Shown piece after piece: positions 10,321 to 22,155 of a stretch of DNA of 22,155 nucleotides. Where the stretch lies: IMG/VR virus record IMGVR_UViG_3300000101_000117, positions 5,232-27,386 of that record. One strand, 5' to 3'. Numbering within the stretch: the first letter of the stretch is position 1; each line of letters starts with the position of its first letter. Source of the stretch: a virus. The position numbers and the translations under genes were made by a program. The notes below the pieces were generated by a model. It was given only the letters and a program-made list of their open reading frames with translations. It ran no database searches and was not told the origin of the DNA.

Positions 10321-10581
10321 TTATTCTACATCAAATAATGGATTTAGCAACAACAATTGCTCTTCGTCTAAGGGCTTATTTAACTCCGCAATGACATCCT
10401 GGACCTCAATCGAAATACAATTGATTTCCTCAAAAGCATCGCAAGGCTTAGCGCATCCGGTGATGATGGACTGCGTAATATTGTAAATCCTCTGTTTTGC
10501 GTCAACTAATCCATACTTTTCAGTAACATCAATTAGCTGCCCAATATCATATGACTTGTATTCATAGTTGGCTTCAATCAT
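10321..10581 (-). CDS. 86-residue acidic protein after ninG, unknown
   Basis: No family recognised. ATG 10581 overlaps the ninG-like stop (ATGA) and AAAGG lies a few bases upstream, so translation is coupled. The protein is acidic and probably helical (YDIGQLIDVTEKYGLVDAKQ; IEVQDVIAELNKPLDEEQLL) with two Cys around residues 43 and 47 (GCAKPCDAFEEINC). It is the last gene of the replication/recombination unit. Confidence 0.65.
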   Translation of the reverse strand: MIEANYEYKSYDIGQLIDVTEKYGLVDAKQRIYNITQSIITGCAKPCDAFEEINCISIEVQDVIAELNKPLDEEQLLLLNPLFDVE

Positions 10582-10985
10582 CGCAACCTTTCCTCTTCAA
10601 TCTTCATTTGATTTTTCATAGACTCCAGCAACTCTCGGTAATCTGCTGCATAAAGCTTTCTAAGTTTTCGCTTGTCCCGGTGCATGGTTTCAACAAACTC
10701 TTTACCGTAATAATCAATCATCCAGAGCGTGTACTGACCCTCAGCACTGCCCCTAGACATACCAAAAATGTTACAACCTACACACTGCGGATGAACATTT
10801 TCTTCTTCAAGCGCCCAGTAAGACGAGCTTCCTTTTGCTATATAATGACCACCCTGAGCCTCTTTCCAATGCAGGTAAGCATTGCACGACACGCAATTGA
10901 CCATTCCCTCGTCATTTGCCGCCTTCATTCTGACCAAGCGCTGTATAGCCTCTAGGCACTGCGCCCTAAGTGTCTTCTTAGCCAT
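10578..10985 (-). CDS. ninG: NinG/Rap-like recombination protein
   Basis: A 135-residue protein. Phage lambda NinG (Rap) is a structure-specific endonuclease active on recombination junctions. Visible here: zinc knuckle CVSC at 31-34, QGGHYIAKGSSSYWAL at 44-59 (His47), NVHPQCVGCN at 63-72 (Cys68, Cys71), then a basic helical tail (RDKRKLRKLYAADYRELLES). This CxxC...GGHY...ENVHPQCxxCN layout is that of the NinG family. The start at 10985 is chosen because it overlaps the NinB-like stop by 8 bp and follows AAAGGC; an upstream in-frame start at 11012 is less likely. With the NinB-like gene it makes a nin-type pair. Confidence 0.85.
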   Translation of the reverse strand: MAKKTLRAQCLEAIQRLVRMKAANDEGMVNCVSCNAYLHWKEAQGGHYIAKGSSSYWALEEENVHPQCVGCNIFGMSRGSAEGQYTLWMIDYYGKEFVETMHRDKRKLRKLYAADYRELLESMKNQMKIEEERLR

Positions 10986-11430
10986 TTTTGCTTGCCTTTT
11001 CAGGGTAATCAAGTATGGACGGAAACTGCTCGTTCACCTGACCATTTGTTAAATCAATTAATTTCCTGTTTATAATATCATAAATTTTGCTAACTTTATC
11101 CCTTGGGCACTTCCTTGTCGAGTCACCAGTACCTGGCGCAACCGCTTCTTGCACTGTAAGCCACATTTTAGATACCAGCTCTTTGTTCCATTCCACCTCA
11201 ATATCGCTTTTAAACATCGGTGAGCTGATGTAGCACGACATGCCAATCCTGTTGAGGCCTTCCGCCACATGACCAAAGTATTTCCACATTGCCGCATTCT
11301 GATTGTTTGTCCTTTTCTTGCCTGTGACCCAGGTATAAGTAACCCAGCCGCTGGATGAGTGCAGCTCTGCCACTCTAGACATAAACGTGCCAAGGGACTT
11401 GTCACTGTTAACTACAATTTGCTCGCCCAT
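10978..11430 (-). CDS. ninB: NinB-like recombination protein
   Basis: A 150-residue protein. NinB (Orf) of lambda binds single-stranded DNA and helps load recombination functions. The segment GKKRTNNQNAAMWKYFGHVA shows the R-T-x-x-Q-N-A-x-x-x hallmark; later come VEWNKELVSKMWLTVQEAV, then a TRKCPRDKVSKIYDIINRKL helix and a short end with FPS. The RTxxQNA motif and the later helical pattern match phage NinB-like proteins that sit beside NinG. The start at 11430 is chosen because its ATG shares one base with the upstream TAA (TAATG) and has AAGGGTGA before it; an in-frame ATG at 11451 lacks this. Confidence 0.7.
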   Translation of the reverse strand: MGEQIVVNSDKSLGTFMSRVAELHSSSGWVTYTWVTGKKRTNNQNAAMWKYFGHVAEGLNRIGMSCYISSPMFKSDIEVEWNKELVSKMWLTVQEAVAPGTGDSTRKCPRDKVSKIYDIINRKLIDLTNGQVNEQFPSILDYPEKASKNG

Positions 11431-11798
11431 TATAATTTCACCCTTAACCACTTATTGGACAAAACCTCACACACACGTTCACAACGATTTATATTTAAAG
11501 ACATTTCCCTGTGCTTGTTGCTTGCCGTTTTTGGTTTAGCAAACGCTCTTTCTTGAGCTGGCCTGAAAGTATGGGCACTCACGGTCCAACTAGATCCACT
11601 TACCTTGTCAATGTTTTCGTCCCGCAACCTTGTCCTCAAAGATTCGTGCTTTAAGCCTGTTTTGGCAGACATGCACTTGTAACTTAGGAGGTCTCCCTCA
11701 GAAAAACCCATATAACTTTTTCCTACATATTTAAACCAGTGCCTTCTACGGTCGTTGTAGGCATTCTTTTTAGGCTGATAAAAGTTAGTGTTCTTCAT
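11430..11798 (-). CDS. 122-residue basic protein, possible HTH, unknown
   Basis: No named family. The protein is basic (NDRRRHWFKYVGKSYMGFSE at about 15-34). The segment SYKCMSAKTGLKHESLRTRLRDEN (about 39-62, two adjacent parts) has the helix-turn-helix look of a DNA-binding protein that recognises a site after a short turn. The C-terminal third has clustered Arg/Lys and Cys (NINRCERVCEVLSNKWLRVKL). Its ATG overlaps the replication-protein stop (ATGA), with AGGAG upstream; its stop overlaps the NinB-like start. Confidence 0.6.
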   Translation of the reverse strand: MKNTNFYQPKKNAYNDRRRHWFKYVGKSYMGFSEGDLLSYKCMSAKTGLKHESLRTRLRDENIDKVSGSSWTVSAHTFRPAQERAFAKPKTASNKHREMSLNINRCERVCEVLSNKWLRVKL

Positions 11799-12487
11799 AG
11801 TGCCCAGCTCCTGTCGTGTGCGTCTGCGATGATTCCCCGCGATCGTATAGAATCGCTTTCCTTTAATTGTTTTGTTTGCGCTTTAAGCTTGTCTCCGCGC
11901 TCCCAGGTTCTTACGCAAGCTTGCCAGTCAGTCACCGGGTTACCGCCTTTAGTCTTCCAGCCGCGAGTCGAATAGTAATCAACAAAATGATCGGCATCAA
12001 TTCCGTTAGCCCTAGAATTACAATACTCCTGAACCTCTTCTTTTGTGGGATGCTTCTTCTTCACCACTGTAGTATTAGTTGTAGTATTAGTTTGTAGTAT
12101 TAACCTAGAAGATTCGTTCAGGGGGGTGGGGAACATTTGCTCTATAGGGTCATGAACAATCGTTCCAGGGGTAGTGAACACATCTTCACCACCTACCGAA
12201 GCCTGTACGCATCTAATGTATCGCCTCTCAACCTGCTTCGTGCCGTCACGATACTTCAATTGAGTCTGAATGTAGCCGCAATCGCTTAACTGGCCAATCC
12301 ACTTAGTAATTGATCTTGTAGAGCAATCGTATTGTTCAGCAAAATACTCATTGAAAGCCCAGCAGTAACCCTTTTCGTTGCACAGTGCAGTAATCTCACC
12401 ATAAAGAAGTCGAGCCATAGGAGTAACGCGCTTGTCGTACCTAACGCTTGCGGGGATAATTGCATAATACGACTTCTTATTTTCCAT
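11795..12487 (-). CDS. Replication initiation protein with N-terminal winged helix (lambda O-like role)
   Basis: A 230-residue protein. The N-terminus (about 5-85) is a winged-helix: SYYAIIPASVRYDKRV, LLYGEITALCNEKGYCW, EYFAEQYDCSTRSITKWIGQ, a pattern common to phage replication proteins. A Thr/Asn linker (about 130-145) coded by iteron-like DNA follows. The C-terminal part (about 145-200) has EVQEYCNSRANGIDADHFVD and TDWQACVRTWER, the helicase-recruiting end seen in DnaT- or O-like proteins. I infer it binds its own internal repeats and loads the host helicase. The start at 12487 is chosen for GGTGA 5 bases upstream and its overlap with the XRE stop; in-frame starts up to 12505 are weaker. 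Confidence 0.8.
   Translation of the reverse strand: MENKKSYYAIIPASVRYDKRVTPMARLLYGEITALCNEKGYCWAFNEYFAEQYDCSTRSITKWIGQLSDCGYIQTQLKYRDGTKQVERRYIRCVQASVGGEDVFTTPGTIVHDPIEQMFPTPLNESSRLILQTNTTTNTTVVKKKHPTKEEVQEYCNSRANGIDADHFVDYYSTRGWKTKGGNPVTDWQACVRTWERGDKLKAQTKQLKESDSIRSRGIIADAHDRSWAL
12068..12105 (+). repeat. Three iteron-like direct repeats inside the replication gene
   Basis: Plus-strand TGTAGTATTA occurs three times, at 12068-12077, 12080-12089 and 12093-12102, with periods of 12 and 13 bp. Because the third copy is shifted by 13 rather than 12 bp, one copy is read in a different frame (L-I-L-Q) from the other two (T-N-T-T), so the DNA repeat is preserved although the protein repeat is not. 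A run of GGGGGGTGGGG lies 15 bp beyond. Lambda places its origin iterons in the same part of gene O, so this is a candidate replication origin. Confidence 0.55.
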
Positions 12488-12695
12488 AACTTTCACCATA
12501 GGCAATAAACTCGCTCAAAGGTATTCCCAGTGCCTCACTGATTCTAGATAGGGTTCTAATGTTTGGGTTTGACTGACCGCTCTTCATAAAGGAAAGTTGC
12601 TGCGGCCTAAGTTGTGCGGCCCCAGAAAGCTCAGCATTTGTTAAATTGTGTACTGCGCCTGCAACTCGTATTGCCTGCTTAATGTTAAAAACCAT
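12477..12695 (-). CDS. XRE/Cro-like helix-turn-helix regulator
   Basis: A 72-residue HTH protein of the XRE family, about the size of Cro or a minimal repressor. The DNA-binding domain covers about 5-65: IKQAIRVAGAV, LTNAELSGAAQLRPQQLSFM (helices 2-3), SNPNIRTLSRISEALGIPLS. There is no C-terminal cleavage or oligomerisation domain, so if it is a repressor it is not the LexA-cleavable type. TAGGAA lies 5 bases before the ATG. It is transcribed away from the recombination island, and a promoter with an inverted repeat lies 30-58 bp upstream. It may also act on the GTAACCGTTAC sites; that is inference. Confidence 0.85.
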   Translation of the reverse strand: MVFNIKQAIRVAGAVHNLTNAELSGAAQLRPQQLSFMKSGQSNPNIRTLSRISEALGIPLSEFIAYGESYGK

Positions 12696-12724
12696 GATTA
12701 TTCCTAGCTGTTAAGTGAAGTGAC

Positions 12725-12753
12725 ATCTTACCCTTAGTAACCAAAGATGGCAA
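12725..12753 (-). promoter_or_regulatory. Promoter of the XRE regulator with an inverted repeat in the spacer
   Basis: Minus strand: TTGCCA (12753-12748; 5 of 6 to consensus), 17 bp spacer, TAAGAT (12730-12725; 4 of 6). The spacer and -10 hold TTAC-TAAGG-GTAA, an inverted repeat on which a regulator could sit. The plus strand shows TTACCCTTA (12728-12736) and TTAACCCTTA (12756-12765), a direct repeat offset by 29 bp. The 150 bp divergent gap must also hold the plus-strand promoter; a weak candidate is TTGCGC (12788-12793), 17 bp, TAAAGT (12811-12816), next to an AGTTC-GA-GAACT inverted repeat at 12814-12825. Confidence 0.5.
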
Positions 12754-12846
12754 CATTAACCCTTAAAAAGTTTATTTAAATGATTAGTTGCGCATTTGCA
12801 GATTATAGCGTAAAGTTCGAGAACTAACTAAAAACGAGGTGAGACA

Positions 12847-13032
12847 ATGCAGAACTTCACTGTATCCGACCTGATGGACTTCAACACTTTCTATGCTCGC
12901 ATGGCTGAGCTAGACTTTTATGATCACCTACCTGCACGAGATAATATGCCTGACAGTTATTATTTGGCGTATGGCTCTTTGTACAACGAATCTGAAAGGC
13001 AATCACACTTAACTGAAATTGAGGCATTATAA
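12847..13032 (+). CDS. 61-residue acidic leader gene of the recombination operon, unknown
   Basis: First gene of the plus-strand unit. The ATG follows GAGGTGAG, the strongest ribosome-binding site of this island. The protein is acidic and aromatic: FTVSDLMDFNTFYARMAELD, later DSYYLAYGSLYNESERQSHL. No family recognised. Its TAA shares one base with the ATG of the Rad52-family gene (TAATG), so the two are coupled. Acidic small proteins in this place can be inhibitors or partners, but there is no evidence for that here. Confidence 0.65.
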   Translation: MQNFTVSDLMDFNTFYARMAELDFYDHLPARDNMPDSYYLAYGSLYNESERQSHLTEIEAL

Positions 13033-13433
13033 TGAGCGAATCTAAAGACTGGGCATCTGTGCAAGCAGCACTAAAATCCCCATTTAACCCAAGGGCTTTG
13101 AGCTGGAGAAAGCAGGGTGGAATTGACCTGGCGTATCTTAACGCAAGGGACGTTATGAAGCGTCTTGATGACGTTGTAGGGATAGAGAACTGGCAGGACC
13201 GTTACGAGGAGTGCAGTGGCAGGGTAATCTGTTACATTTCTATTCGCGTGGAGGGTGAGTGGGTAACCAAAGCTGATGGCTCAGGGGATACTAAAATTGA
13301 GGGCGACAAGGGAGGCATATCTGGAGCGTTTAAAAGGTCTGCGGTCCGGTGGGGAATTGGCCGCTACTTGTACTACTTAAAGCCTGGTGCATCTGCCAAT
13401 AACTTGCCAGCATGGGCAATTCCAAATGAATAA
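13032..13433 (+). CDS. Rad52-family single-strand annealing protein
   Basis: A 133-residue annealase of the Rad52/Rad22 family, which pairs complementary single strands during phage recombination. Key segments: AYLNARDVMKRLDDVVGIEN (start of the core), NWQDRYEE, ICYISIRVEGEWVTKADGSG (strands), then KGGISGAFKRSAVRWGIGRY and LYYLKP. The G-x-x-x-A-x-K-R-x-A-x-x-W-G-I-G-R-Y-L-Y segment is the family hallmark. It is short because only the annealing core is present, as usual for phage members. It is coupled to the gene before and overlaps the nuclease gene by 8 bp; annealase plus exonuclease is a standard phage pair. Confidence 0.92.
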   Translation: MSESKDWASVQAALKSPFNPRALSWRKQGGIDLAYLNARDVMKRLDDVVGIENWQDRYEECSGRVICYISIRVEGEWVTKADGSGDTKIEGDKGGISGAFKRSAVRWGIGRYLYYLKPGASANNLPAWAIPNE

Positions 13434-14193
13434 GTATGTGGCAGAATCAGGGCATTGGTACGACCAGGACGGGAACCCTGCTTATACGATTATTGGAGCT
13501 AACGGATCTGAGCGCAACACTACGCTTAGGGATGCCAGAAAGTTAAAGCTAGTACCTTCTGTTACTACAATACTTGGGGTCGCAGCCAAGCCAGCGCTAG
13601 AAAACTGGAAGGTTGACCAGGCAATATTAGCAGCCACTACTCTTGAGCAGCACAACAGCGAAACGCTTGAGGAATTTAGGTCAAGAATTAAATGGCAATC
13701 AAAGCAGGAGGGAAAGAAGGCTGCTGAGCGTGGCACTGAAATACACGCTCAGATTGAAAGTGGGTTTAAGGGTAAAAGTAAAAATGATGCGTACTGCGCA
13801 GTTCGTGATTACTTGGAGCTTATGTTTCCTGGCGAGACCTGGTTTGCTGAAGAGTCATTTACAAGCAATCTAGGATATGGCGGAAAAATGGATCTTCGCA
13901 GCGCAGCAGGCGTGTTTGTAGATTTTAAGACCAAAGACGGTCTTACAGAAAATTCTGATGGGTCTAAGTTAGTGTATGATGAGCATGGCATGCAGTTGTC
14001 TGCCTATGCTGCTGGCGCAAACTTTATTAACCCGGAAAGAATGTCGGTATTTATTGACCGAAAAGACCCAACTATAGTGTGTGGTTATGTTTGGCCACAA
14101 GAGTCCCATGAACGACATCTTGAGATGTTTAAACAATTGCTTTCATATTGGAAGCTAGTAAAAAAATACAATCCTAATGAGGAAGAAAAATGA
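13426..14193 (+). CDS. PD-(D/E)XK exonuclease (Cas4/RecB-like)
   Basis: A 255-residue nuclease that would trim double-strand ends to feed the annealase. From the ATG at 13426: VPSVTTILG at 43-51, GTEIHAQIE at 103-111 (His107), GKMDL at 153-157 (Asp156), VFVDFKTKDG at 163-172 (Asp166-x-Lys168), and QLSAYAAG at 190-197 (the QxxxYA motif of RecB-like nucleases). This ordered set supports an active fold. The start is taken at 13426, overlapping the Rad52 stop by 8 bp; an in-frame ATG at 13387 inside the Rad52 gene gives 13 extra residues with no family likeness. Confidence 0.88.
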   Translation: MNKYVAESGHWYDQDGNPAYTIIGANGSERNTTLRDARKLKLVPSVTTILGVAAKPALENWKVDQAILAATTLEQHNSETLEEFRSRIKWQSKQEGKKAAERGTEIHAQIESGFKGKSKNDAYCAVRDYLELMFPGETWFAEESFTSNLGYGGKMDLRSAAGVFVDFKTKDGLTENSDGSKLVYDEHGMQLSAYAAGANFINPERMSVFIDRKDPTIVCGYVWPQESHERHLEMFKQLLSYWKLVKKYNPNEEEK

Positions 14194-14579
14194 GCGTATC
14201 AATAACAGGTAAATTAAACCGAGCAGCTAACCAATTTCAAGCTGGCGACAGCACAGGCTTTGGCGTTAGATTAGGCGTAAAGTTTTACAACCGCGAAACT
14301 AAAGCCCAAGAGTACACTAATTACGAAGCTGTGATATTTGCCAGGGCAGGTAACCAGGCAGAGTTTTATACTGCAATGTTAGATGAAGGGTCTGTAGTTG
14401 AGATAAGCGGTTCTGGCTGTCAGATTAAGACTTTCCAGGGAAAGAATGGGCCTATAAATTCTATTGCAATACTTGACGCAAAGTTGGGTTATGTCGGTGC
14501 AGGAGCAACGCCACCACGAGCGCCAGCACAATCTCAGGCAACTGCGGATGTTAGCTTTGACGATGAGCTACCTTTTTAA
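14190..14579 (+). CDS. ssb: Single-stranded DNA-binding protein
   Basis: A 129-residue OB-fold protein: MSVSITGKLNRAANQF, later FGVRLGVKFYNRETKAQEY, YEAVIFARAGNQAEF, GSVVEISGSGCQIKTF and a Pro/Ala/Gln linker. The last six residues, DDELPF, are the acidic tip by which SSBs dock partner proteins. It protects single strands for replication and annealing. The ATG overlaps the nuclease stop (ATGA), so annealase, nuclease and SSB are one coupled cassette. Confidence 0.88.
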   Translation: MSVSITGKLNRAANQFQAGDSTGFGVRLGVKFYNRETKAQEYTNYEAVIFARAGNQAEFYTAMLDEGSVVEISGSGCQIKTFQGKNGPINSIAILDAKLGYVGAGATPPRAPAQSQATADVSFDDELPF

Positions 14580-18016: not shown

Positions 18017-18255
18017 GGTGCTGTTTCCTTCTGCTTTTTGTCGTAGATCGCCTCGTCTGTAAATACAGTTTGGAATTGATCTTCAATCAAATTAAGCGCC
18101 CTGATTATATCATGGGCGCCTTTAATAGTCTCTATTTGAGACTGGCTGTTCAGGAAGACAGCGGACTGCCTATCCCGAATAATTTGCAAGATTTCCTGAA
18201 AGGTTTCATCTCGACTTAAATTTCTGGCTAATGCAGCCTTATCTTTTATATTCAA
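17995..18255 (-). CDS. 86-residue protein between portal and scaffold, unknown
   Basis: A helical protein with a TTG start that overlaps the portal TGA as TTGA; no ATG alternative is near. Segments DETFQEILQIIRDRQSAVFL, SQIETIKGAHDIIRALNLIE and FTDEAIYDKKQ look like a small helical bundle of the kind often coded beside phage portals. A chaperone or minor head role is possible. The non-ATG start and weak ribosome-binding site imply translation depends on the portal gene. Confidence 0.65.
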   Translation of the reverse strand: MNIKDKAALARNLSRDETFQEILQIIRDRQSAVFLNSQSQIETIKGAHDIIRALNLIEDQFQTVFTDEAIYDKKQKETAPWKRLKL

Positions 18256-20348
18256 AATCGACCGCCGGTTACAGCTTGAACCGGAGTGCTGTCTGGGTAT
18301 CTAGGCGCAGCTTGCTCAGCTTTAATTCTTGCAGTGTCTACTGCTGTGCCGTACTTACCTAGTATCTCAGCCGCATCAACCAGTAAGTCTTGATCCATCT
18401 GGTCGCGCTCGCGGTCATCGTTGGCAATAGCTTTCTGTGCGTCAATTTGCAACTTAGCCATATCAGTAGTCGCCTTAGATTGAGCTTTAATCTGCTCAGC
18501 CTGGACATATGCTTCTGGCTGCGTAAGCTGCTTCTGACCTTGTTGCTGCTGTTGTTGCTGTTGTTGAATCTGCTGTTCAATCTGCATATCCATAGGCATA
18601 AAGTATCGCTCGGCATTGGTAAGACCATTTATGGCTAGCATATCGGACAAAGTGTTTCTTATTTGCGTCATTCCAACCAAACCGTTTCCTATACCATACG
18701 TTTGAAATACCTGCATTTGAACTTGCAGTGCCTGCTGTAAAGCAGCCATTTTTTCACCATCTTTACCCGTTCCAAGACCGACATTAATTCTAACGTCCAT
18801 AGCCTTGTCCCACGACCTGGGATCTATAGGCTCATATTGGCCGCCAGTAACGCGCATAATTGTGGCTTCGTCACAGTTCTCAACAACAAGTTTAAGCATC
18901 AATCTGAACAACTGAGTCATTCCGCCTTCTGCAAGGTTTCTGGCCATGATCTCAATTTGATCATCTCCACCTTGCCTGGCAGCCATAATAGCTGTTGCTG
19001 TGCTTGCCTGAAGTACGTCAGGGTCTAGACCCATACTGGCCTTTGATATTCCGACTTTGTTTTGTATCTCTTGATCGTAATATTGAATAGCAGTTAAAGT
19101 TTGCCCTGCGACAAAAGGAATTGTCTGTGGAGTAATTGCACCAGCTTGCTTAGTACGGATGATGCCGCCAATTTCGTTATTCAGCAGGTCGTCAATGTTA
19201 ACTTGACCATCAATAACTTCTGTACGAGGGTTGTTAGTGAGGGCAATGTTATCAAGTACGCCTCTAAGCAATGCTGTGGCACTGTCCTGGTCGTTAAGTA
19301 TCAAGTCTGCAACAGAGTTACCGTAGAACGTGTGCGGCTCAGGATCGACCTCAAAGACTGCAAATGGCAAATGGCCCCAAAGCTCCATGCCGAGCATGTG
19401 GTAATTATCTCCACCCATAGTCAGCTTGTACATTTGGGGAATGCCAGTACCGTCAACGTCCATCTTCATGTAGCACTCGGTAATCATAACCAGGCGCATG
19501 CTAGGGTCAGCGTCATCGTTGTCGTTGTAGTTGTCCATGTAACCTGTGCGCTCAAACTCTTCCATATCAGAGAAGGTAGAAGATTGCGAAGAATCTCCAA
19601 GCTCTGCTACTTCATCAAAGTCAAAGCCCATCTCAACCAAGTCGCCAACGCGCATGTCTGTTCTGTGGCATACAGCGTAAGCGTCTTCCAGCGATTTAGC
19701 ATTTGAATCAACAAAAAACTCTTCTGGCGGGACGCTTTCAAGCTTTAGGCTGCCCATCTCCTTGGTACGCATAATCTTTAAATCGTGCCGTGGAGACTCA
19801 ACCTCAAGCCCCATCTGGTCCAACTCAATCTCAATGCGCGTAGTATGCTCTATAACTTCAACACCCTCGTCATTTACAATAGCAGTAAATTCCATATCGT
19901 TAAGGTTATCAAAGGTGTAAGTCTCTGCTTCTTCTGAAGTATCCCAGTAAGACTTAATAATACCGTTCTTCTTCAGTAGGGCATCGTGTATGGCGTCATA
20001 CAGCACTCTGTAGCCATTTAACTCGTTAAACTTGTAGTTGACGTACTTGGTAGCTTGCTCAGCAAATGGGACATCCTGGGGCTTCTCAGGGATATACTCG
20101 ACAGCCCGGTCAGTTTGCAGGAACACTCTCATCAGGCTGGGCTTAATAGCTCGAATTGCATCACGCACTTTTGTAGATACAACGCTGGATCGGCCCTCTT
20201 CTTGGCCAATGTCTACGTTACCCTCGTAATAGCGTTGCGACTTCAATCGGCTAAAAGCAACCTCAGACTCTACAAAATCAACACAGTCTTCAATAGCGCT
20301 TCGAGCAATGTTCTGGATCTCATCTTTCTCTAAAGGCTTTAATTCCAC
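18252..20348 (-). CDS. Portal protein (SU10-like)
   Basis: A 698-residue portal subunit, the dodecameric gate for DNA at the head vertex. Recognisable parts: an N-terminal helical lead (PLEKDEIQNIARSAIEDCVD), SSVVSTKVRDAIRAIKPSLM, then MRVFLQTDRAVEYIPEKP, QATKYVNYKFNELNGY and KKNGIIKSYWD, all typical of large podophage portals; further on, WGHLPFAVFEVDPEPHTFYG, GNSVADLILNDQ and the C-terminal QQ-rich tail. The start is taken as GTG 20348: AGGAGAG lies upstream, 2 bases follow the previous stop, and an in-frame GTG at 20390 lies inside the previous gene. The end overlaps the next gene by 4 bases. A run of nine Gln is at 18566-18540. Confidence 0.92.
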   Translation of the reverse strand: MELKPLEKDEIQNIARSAIEDCVDFVESEVAFSRLKSQRYYEGNVDIGQEEGRSSVVSTKVRDAIRAIKPSLMRVFLQTDRAVEYIPEKPQDVPFAEQATKYVNYKFNELNGYRVLYDAIHDALLKKNGIIKSYWDTSEEAETYTFDNLNDMEFTAIVNDEGVEVIEHTTRIEIELDQMGLEVESPRHDLKIMRTKEMGSLKLESVPPEEFFVDSNAKSLEDAYAVCHRTDMRVGDLVEMGFDFDEVAELGDSSQSSTFSDMEEFERTGYMDNYNDNDDADPSMRLVMITECYMKMDVDGTGIPQMYKLTMGGDNYHMLGMELWGHLPFAVFEVDPEPHTFYGNSVADLILNDQDSATALLRGVLDNIALTNNPRTEVIDGQVNIDDLLNNEIGGIIRTKQAGAITPQTIPFVAGQTLTAIQYYDQEIQNKVGISKASMGLDPDVLQASTATAIMAARQGGDDQIEIMARNLAEGGMTQLFRLMLKLVVENCDEATIMRVTGGQYEPIDPRSWDKAMDVRINVGLGTGKDGEKMAALQQALQVQMQVFQTYGIGNGLVGMTQIRNTLSDMLAINGLTNAERYFMPMDMQIEQQIQQQQQQQQQGQKQLTQPEAYVQAEQIKAQSKATTDMAKLQIDAQKAIANDDRERDQMDQDLLVDAAEILGKYGTAVDTARIKAEQAAPRYPDSTPVQAVTGGRF
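18540..18566 (-). repeat. Nine-glutamine CAG/CAA tract in the portal C-terminus
   Basis: The coding strand holds nine CAR codons in a row (CAA and CAG mixed) inside a longer Gln-rich stretch near Ile-Glu-Gln-Gln-Ile. Mixed codons argue for a protein-level run rather than simple slippage, but such tracts can change length. Confidence 0.9.
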
Positions 20349-20349
20349 G

Positions 20350-22155
20350 TTACAATCTCTCCTGTCCGAGTTGAGCGCCTTGTTGCGCACCTGCTACCCC
20401 CGCCCCTCGCGTAAGCCCAGCAGCCAAAGTTTCCGCTCTTTTGATGAGCTTTGCAAGTACGGTTTTGTCAGTCAACGCTTGAGCTACTAATTCAGGGTTT
20501 TCAGAATATAAAATACGCCCCACTTCTGCCATTTGCTGCTGACTTAATCCTTGAGCCGAAGGAATGCCTGCAGATACAAGCTTAATAATTGCCATCGGAT
20601 CGCCCTGAGTTGCCCTAAGCATGTCTTCCGCAGAATTACCGCTACCGCGCAACTCCTGTTCTCTTATCAATCCCGCAGTCGGTGACCCGGAAGTAGGTTG
20701 AATAAACTTGTCCATTTCTGAAGCTTCAGCAGCTCGACCAACTCTAGCTAGAACATCAGGAGCCTGGCCCTCTGGCAATAAAACTCGAAGTGCAGCTCCA
20801 ACTTGAACGTCTTCTTTAGCTAAGTCTCGAAGAAGAACTCCAGATCGCCTTGCTCTATTTCTTAGCGCATCCATTGAGCCCGCCCTAAATGCCGACAAAG
20901 CCTCTCCTTTTAAAGACTCCATAACCATTTCTAGCTCATCAACATTCATGGTTAAGGCTTTCTGGCGCCCTTCATCAAACGCCTTGTTCGCATCCATCAT
21001 TTGACTGTATTTTTGTCGTACCGCAGCTAAGTTAGGAGATTCTAAATTAATTGCTTGCCGCAAAGGAGCCTCAGTACCACTAAGCGCCTCTCCAACGGAA
21101 CCTTCACCAGCTCGGAATCTAGCACTAGCCTCTTCTCCAATGTTCCTTCGCAATATCTCAGCATCTTCTAAATTAGGCTTTCTAACAAAAACTATAGCGC
21201 CATTGGGATCTTCTTTAAACAGAGGCACTAAGTTCCTAATTCTATAAAGTTCATCTAGCTTTAATTTTGCAGTAGGGACGCTTTGAATAATGTTAAGCAT
21301 TTGATCCTCTACCTCTGGACTCACAGACGGAGAAGATGCAAAAACCTCATCATATGCACCGCTTTGCTCTTTTTTAATATCAGCTTCCTGAAGTCTGCGA
21401 GCCCTCAAAACATTGGGGTCACCCACTTCTGGAGCTAACGCGCCTCTTAAAGATTCAGTTGCCTCCGACCCGGTTGATTTGCGCCTGGCGCTACTAGCAG
21501 CTAAAATTTCAGCCCTGGTTAAACCGCCTTCTTGCACCATTGACTTAATCGCAAGTCCAAGCGTCTTGTTGTCTGCCATGATTCGACCGGAAGCAACATC
21601 TGCAATAACCTCATCAATTGACTTGCCTGTACCTTCCGCAAGCCTACGCAGCTCAGCTTGCACAGCAGTATCCGCACCGCCCATATTTTTTCGGACAAAA
21701 TTGATAAGTTTAGAACCGAGGTTGCCAATCTTCCCAAGTGCAACTTCCGACCCGACACCAACAGCAGTTCCAATGGTAGTTCCAAGACCAACGTCCTTAG
21801 CTCCTGTCTCAAAATCATCTGCCTCAGAATATCCGGCAGAGCTTACTAAAGCTTCTCCTGCGCCTCTTGTAACTATGCTTCTAAGGTTTTGACCAGCGGC
21901 TACTCTAGCCCCAGGAACAGGCGCAAAAGCCATTACGATAGATGGCAAGAATGCTCCAGCTAATTCAGCAGATAGAGCAGCTCCCGGATTTTTTTCAGCA
22001 TAATCGGATAGCTTGCGTCTTAGCTCATCTCTCACTTCAGTGTACTTACCGCCACCCATTGATTCAGGAACAACAGCGCGAACCGCAGCTTCAATCTCGT
22101 CTGCAAATCCAAAAGTTGCCCCTTGAGCAAAGGTTCTGCCTAATTGTGAATCAAC
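20350..22155 (-). CDS. Large probable internal/ejection virion protein, N-terminus beyond window
   Basis: The frame is open to the right edge, so 601 residues plus a stop are visible and the start is outside. The visible N-terminal part reads GRTFAQGATFGFADEIEAAV, then GGGKYTEVRDELRRKLSDYA and a Gly/Ala-rich hydrophobic stretch (ALSAELAGAFLPSIVMAFAP, later GLGTTIGTAVGVGSEVALG). The rest is Ala/Glu/Arg-rich helix (for example LRRLAEGTGKSIDEVIADVA, MVQEGGLTRAEILAASSARR), ending in AAGLTRGAGVAGAQQG. Glycine-rich hydrophobic segments followed by long helical repeats are common in phage proteins ejected into the cell. No catalytic motif is seen. It lies directly before the portal gene, with 1 base between its stop and the portal GTG. 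Confidence 0.7.
   Translation of the reverse strand, partial: VDSQLGRTFAQGATFGFADEIEAAVRAVVPESMGGGKYTEVRDELRRKLSDYAEKNPGAALSAELAGAFLPSIVMAFAPVPGARVAAGQNLRSIVTRGAGEALVSSAGYSEADDFETGAKDVGLGTTIGTAVGVGSEVALGKIGNLGSKLINFVRKNMGGADTAVQAELRRLAEGTGKSIDEVIADVASGRIMADNKTLGLAIKSMVQEGGLTRAEILAASSARRKSTGSEATESLRGALAPEVGDPNVLRARRLQEADIKKEQSGAYDEVFASSPSVSPEVEDQMLNIIQSVPTAKLKLDELYRIRNLVPLFKEDPNGAIVFVRKPNLEDAEILRRNIGEEASARFRAGEGSVGEALSGTEAPLRQAINLESPNLAAVRQKYSQMMDANKAFDEGRQKALTMNVDELEMVMESLKGEALSAFRAGSMDALRNRARRSGVLLRDLAKEDVQVGAALRVLLPEGQAPDVLARVGRAAEASEMDKFIQPTSGSPTAGLIREQELRGSGNSAEDMLRATQGDPMAIIKLVSAGIPSAQGLSQQQMAEVGRILYSENPELVAQALTDKTVLAKLIKRAETLAAGLTRGAGVAGAQQGAQLGQERL

Follow-up and report, generated by a model that had tools for sequence, protein, structure and literature searches.

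The linker of the replication initiator gene of this phage is very probably its theta-type replication origin, in which, on the sequence evidence, iterons are combined with AT-rich melting repeats in the manner of phage lambda and the RepA_N plasmids. Comparison of relatives demonstrates, at the sequence level, that both of these blocks exist and are constrained as DNA, and that the iterons covary with the recognition helix of the initiator. The window analysed here (22,155 nucleotides) spans positions 5232-27386 of the viral record, itself 27,386 bases long; the record is a linear and incomplete fragment, so that a further origin elsewhere is conceivable. The original prediction had located the best origin candidate of the window at three short repeats in the stretch of the gene that links the DNA-binding and C-terminal regions; the position is confirmed and our analysis favours its candidacy, with the following features, all on the minus strand.

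11795-12505, minus strand: replication initiator gene, 236 codons, with a probable ATG at 12487
12209-12469, minus strand: N-terminal winged-helix domain, assigned from covariation and from the RepA-like fold of the AlphaFold2 model (block-mean pLDDT mostly 74-90); recognition helix T-R-S-I-T-K-W, in which R58 is position -5 and K62 position -1 (numbering from the ATG at 12487)
12062-12205, minus strand: DNA-constrained linker, codons 101-148, encoding a predicted disordered segment
12176-12187, minus strand: predicted iteron core 1, GAAGATGTGTTC, supported by homologous position and by 22-24 bp periodicity in relatives
12154-12165, minus strand: predicted iteron core 2, GAACGATTGTTC
12131-12142, minus strand: predicted iteron core 3, GAGCAAATGTTC
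12108-12119, minus strand: predicted iteron core 4, GAACGAATCTTC
12120-12175, minus strand: ACCC-rich spacers ACTACCCCTG (12166-12175), ATGACCCTATA (12143-12153) and CCCACCCCCCT (12120-12130)
12093-12102, minus strand: putative melting repeat 1, TAATACTACA, frame-shifted, encoding L-I-L-Q
12080-12089, minus strand: putative melting repeat 2, TAATACTACA, encoding T-N-T-T
12068-12077, minus strand: putative melting repeat 3, TAATACTACA, encoding T-N-T-T
11798-12058, minus strand: C-terminal part of the initiator, helical in the AlphaFold2 model

The initiator carries an N-terminal HTH_36 domain (PF13730; E=2e-10, 40.6 bits against a curated cut-off of 25), which is the only Pfam match at E<=0.01, the RepA_N domain (PF06970) being absent, and it matches PHROG families annotated as 'replication initiation protein' (phrog_19658, the best, at E=1.3e-28, and phrog_270 at E=4e-23). 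The best fold matches of its structural model are the N-terminal domains of the plasmid RepA proteins of pSK41 and pTZ2162, at weak E values of 0.009-0.02, and a search of solved structures by sequence with the family profile returned chance-level matches only. Residues 96-143 are predicted by AlphaFold2 to be disordered (pLDDT ~31). The C-terminal part, presumed to be a helicase-loading or primosome-recruiting domain, is exchanged for unrelated C-termini among relatives, and the linker elements are retained.

The repeat TGTAGTATTA is present as three exact copies on the plus strand, at 12068-12077, 12080-12089 and 12093-12102, in steps of 12 and 13 bp, as had been described; the 13 bp step does shift the reading frame, so that the copy at 12093-12102 is translated differently from the other two. 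On the coding strand of the initiator gene the repeat reads TAATACTACA, one form of the pattern TAATAnTACA, which occurs exactly three times in the whole 27,386-base record, at these positions, compared with no occurrence of the reversed control pattern. When synonymous codons were permuted within the gene, preserving protein and codon usage, the mean number of TAATAnTACA matches was 0.11 and none of 500 shuffles reached three. Allowing one mismatch across the window recovered the same three sites only, and since 15 of 100 whole-window shuffles gave three scattered one-mismatch matches, it is the exactness and clustering of the copies that is unusual. The 37 bp starting at 12067 are less stable than any other 37-mer of the initiator gene and rank third in instability among the separate sites of the window, placing an unstable AT-rich region beside the iteron block.

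The prediction that selection here acts on DNA is borne out by comparison with close relatives (L003-L005), which are 80-82% identical and have nearly the same winged helix. Relative to L003, synonymous changes affect 4 of 35 unchanged-residue codons inside codons 101-148 as against 77 of 153 outside (P=1.8e-5), and 13 of the 48 linker codons differ non-synonymously. All three relatives keep three TAATAnTACA copies and the 13/12 spacing with a changed middle base, for example TAATAATACA, and the frame-shifted copy is retained in them and in L024. A near-identical winged helix lacking the repeat, which would have spoken against the original prediction, was not encountered among them.

The pattern extends well beyond these close relatives. 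In 39 non-redundant relatives, collected by protein alone and without use of the motif, we counted 73 TAATAnTACA in the initiator reading frame compared with 10.6 expected under synonymous shuffling, and about seven in all flanking DNA, three of which form an array just beyond a premature stop in L066. Exact copies are missing from five of the 39 and from some further relatives. In most relatives TAATAnTACA comes after the iterons, regardless of recognition helix, C-terminal domain or host. A protein-blind DNA scan for the triple repeat found at least 120 loci in viral contigs and, among the 120 matches listed, 109 lie inside open reading frames encoding this winged helix, all on the same strand. 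In bacterial genomes 20 of 52 triple-repeat matches fall inside such initiator reading frames; the pattern alone is not specific, because most of the other bacterial matches are long NNT-type repeats in unrelated proteins.

Some phages carry the array outside coding sequence and so offer a means of separating its DNA role from its protein role. The L188 initiator, of 119 residues, terminates once the winged helix is complete. Iterons and repeats lie in the next 160 bp or so, in which every frame contains stops, and a 596-residue helicase/primase-like gene comes next. The order iterons, repeats, helicase-like gene recurs in L156, where the array lies outside open reading frames on a contig that ends before the initiator. 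In L271-L273 the initiators end at 109-114 residues and the iterons and repeats precede the next gene, so that in the L271 type the array lies between a short initiator and a helicase/primase-like gene; one reading frame stays open across this array, without a listed forward ORF. In L066/L174 and L250 a premature stop ends the initiator frame, with the repeats located beyond it. From their sequences, the elements have been retained without a coding role at least in the L188 and L271 types, with L156 as a probable third lineage. In the split-type phages (L188:184-2495 and L271:1501-3317) the initiator consists of the winged helix alone, without a C-terminal loader domain. A Carnobacterium bin contig (L209:4600-4751) contains iterons and TAATAnTACA with no intact initiator ORF and looks like a decayed prophage origin.

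These data bear on the possibility that the repeats lack a DNA function and arose as a side effect of a flexible protein linker rich in Asn and Thr, or through replication slippage. The predicted disorder of the linker is compatible with such an origin, as is the occurrence of NNT-type repeats in unrelated low-complexity bacterial proteins, 32 of the 52 genome matches not being assigned to initiators. However, neither a protein linker nor slippage accounts for the frame-shifted copy and the synonymous trough, for the excess over the protein-preserving null (73 against 10.6) or for the arrays outside coding DNA in L188, L156 and L271, and the varied middle base and 12/13/15 spacing are unlike pure slippage. 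We regard this explanation as largely refuted and extremely improbable.

Directly upstream of the repeats in the gene lies a second, longer array that was missed in the original prediction, comprising four 12-bp palindromic cores of the GAAC-N4-GTTC type at 12108-12187, 22-23 bp apart and separated by ACCC-rich spacers. In relatives the units have variable arms around an A-rich centre (for example GAAG-AAAA-CTTC, GACA-AAAA-TGTC or AACA-AAAA-TGTT) and are separated by ACCC- or GGGT-containing spacers; ACCCY/RGGGT words number 89 in the linkers of 38 relatives compared with 24.9 under synonymous shuffling. Among the permitted lags of 15-40, one of 21-24 bp gives the best self-match of the iteron block in 36 of 37 relatives, and the period is often 22 or 23 bp and hence out of codon register. 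Tandem iterons are found within the initiator gene under DNA-level constraint, although in the window alone the iteron repeat score falls within its synonymous null (P=0.28); homology and the synonymous trough are what identify the iterons of the window. A search for perfect palindromes overlooked many iterons, those of the window among them, and was superseded by a chain search; the latter places weak sites wrongly in L017, L051 and L188, among other relatives, which lowers rather than raises the association described below.

To relate the iterons to the protein, arms were called blind to protein sequence in 87 non-redundant initiators. Arginine at helix position -1, just before the recognition-helix Trp, accompanies C at arm position 3 (15/21 versus 2/66, P=2e-10; independent tree contrasts 8:0, P=0.004), and arginine at position -5 accompanies G at arm position 1 (12/15 versus 9/72, P=5e-7; contrasts 7:0, P=0.008). 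The Fisher P values are too small because non-redundant genomes share ancestry, and the tree contrasts are the safer numbers. When all 64 position pairs were compared in an unbiased 16x4 scan, these two ranked first and third. Both rules had been spotted in these data ahead of the formal test, and further relatives are few; most of 11 additional non-redundant relatives follow both rules, the exceptions being loci with weak iteron calls. The window itself, with R58 and K62, agrees with the rules, its arms having G at position 1 and A at position 3.

The initiator's binding sites are thus likely to be the palindromic cores at 12108-12187, as judged from this covariation. The original prediction had instead taken the TAATAnTACA copies to be iterons bound by the N-terminal winged helix and had proposed comparing iteron DNA with initiator N-termini in relatives; that comparison, once made, revealed covariation in the cores and not in TAATAnTACA. 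The TAATAnTACA copies, being tandem, near-exact and within the initiator gene, could themselves be the initiator's double-stranded binding sites, with the palindromes auxiliary, but we consider this very improbable. The palindrome arms vary with the recognition helix whereas TAATAnTACA stays constant across differing helices, so the recognition helix is unlikely to read it; moreover, the repeat consists almost wholly of A and T, and no DNA in the gene is less stable, features shared with known unwinding regions. In composition and placement alike, the three repeats would correspond to the AT-rich melting region of the lambda origin rather than to its iterons.

On the origin reading, block 1 (12108-12187) would provide four palindromic iterons, each probably bound by a winged-helix dimer, and block 2 (12068-12102), directly downstream in the gene, would supply three TAATAnTACA as the DNA unwinding element. 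Bound to the iterons, the initiator would then melt the AT-rich repeats, may hold or present one freed strand, and would recruit the helicase or its loader through its C-terminal domain.

Origins inside initiator genes are already known, in lambda O and in RepA_N plasmids. The lambda origin lies within gene O, with iterons in mid-gene and, after them, an AT-rich tract on which unwinding depends (PMC7466680). The arrangement in the window is similar, in that iterons and an AT-rich tract lie inside the initiator gene, but the lambda iterons are different and the window initiator has only weak PHROG similarity to O-like proteins. Lambda is not known to have a conserved tandem AT repeat of the TAATAnTACA kind. 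One study of RepA_N plasmids places the pSK41 origin centrally in rep, where it encodes the linker between the DNA-binding and C-terminal domains, and describes pPR9, in which a PF13730 N-terminus was swapped along with the origin region and which supports replication (PMC5703833). RepA_N iterons are described in another as inverted repeats converging on a poly-A tract (PMC7145576). A central origin in the initiator gene with inverted-repeat iterons is common to pSK41, pTZ2162 and, as proposed here, the family of the window; inverted repeats around an A-rich centre are present in the consensus of our relatives, and the core centres of the window are less pure (GATG, GATT, CAAA and GAAT). The RepA_N plasmids differ in having a PF06970 N-terminus, whereas the window's initiator has PF13730, shared with pPR9, and resembles RepA_N by fold only. 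A TAATAnTACA array is not mentioned for pSK41, pTZ2162 or pPR9 in the portions of these two sources available (PMC5703833, PMC7145576). The rep gene of the lactococcal phage Tuc2009 is annotated as containing an origin of replication; Tuc2009 and TP901-1, lactococcal phages known for intragenic origins, were considered as relatives and rejected, with no convincing winged-helix profile match and no TAATAnTACA at up to one mismatch.

How the constant repeat might be read is suggested by two bacterial systems. DnaD binds a TnnT motif, the DnaD recognition element (DRE), as single-stranded DNA (PMC10201434), and TrfA of RK2 binds the AT-rich 13-mers of oriV as single strands (PMC4081077). By analogy, the RK2 13-mers and the DRE and DnaA-trios of B. 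subtilis are short AT-rich tandem repeats beside initiator sites, as here, although they serve other initiators and the family of the window has 10-bp units at 12/13/15-bp spacing. TAATAnTACA contains TnnTnnT (T1, T4 and T7), and thus at least two TnnT on one strand as in the DRE, a loose pattern of low specificity. DnaA-trios proper were considered and rejected, as TA-n triplets are present but many are TAT or TAC, breaking the TAG/TAA rule, so that the likeness is one of analogy only. The most speculative of our proposals is that TAATAnTACA may be read as single-stranded DNA in the manner of the DRE and the RK2 13-mers. More broadly, and tentatively, with the balance tipped somewhat against it, TAATAnTACA could be an unwinding element widely shared by phages, a counterpart of the DnaA-trios and DRE that persists through changes of iteron specificity, C-terminal domain and host, and that is recognised in single-stranded form by a host protein or by the conserved body of the winged helix.

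Regulation is another role open to palindromic sites in an early operon, and the linker array might be mainly regulatory, the initiator binding the palindromes to control its own operon and the true origin lying elsewhere, for instance at other AT-rich sites in the window such as 12753, in a divergent intergenic region, or 14687. We consider this very improbable, as the palindromes are well within the gene and in fixed order with the unstable repeat block, the block lies just ahead of the helicase/primase-like gene in the split-type phages, and the matched precedents, lambda O and the rep genes of pSK41 and pPR9, are origins. Upstream of the initiator and overlapping it is a small Cro/CI-type HTH gene (12477-12695, minus strand), which adjoins the divergent AT-rich intergenic region 12696-12846 with its least-stable site at 12753, the main alternative AT-rich site near the initiator; this is likely to be an early control region.

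In the open-access literature we found neither the TAATAnTACA element nor the two-residue iteron code described, and among the matches listed for open-access papers containing TAATACTACA or TAATAATACA, none had a title or abstract on phage replication. The analysis offers a sequence rule for finding replication origins in a large number of phages, most of them uncultured, and part of a code for protein-DNA recognition by their initiators, and it exposes a conserved, putative melting repeat. If TAATAnTACA is indeed a shared unwinding element, then together with the two-residue code it would make origins and initiator specificity predictable from sequence.

The gene neighbourhood of the initiator includes a divergent recombination operon (13032-14579, plus strand) encoding a Rad52/Erf-like annealing protein (13032-13433), an exonuclease-like protein (13420-14193) and a single-strand binding protein (14190-14579). 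Downstream of the initiator, 10578-11451 on the minus strand encodes a NinG/Rap-like protein (10578-11012) and a weak NinB/Orf-like match (10978-11451), a lambda-like arrangement. A 14-nt inverted repeat, TCGCCCATTATAAT (11423-11436) and ATTATAATGAGCGA (13026-13039), is 93% complementary and its arms overlap gene-start contexts. Further along, the portal protein (18252-20390, minus strand) matches the SU10-type portal family PF23899 at E=7e-194, which suggests a podovirus-like virion.
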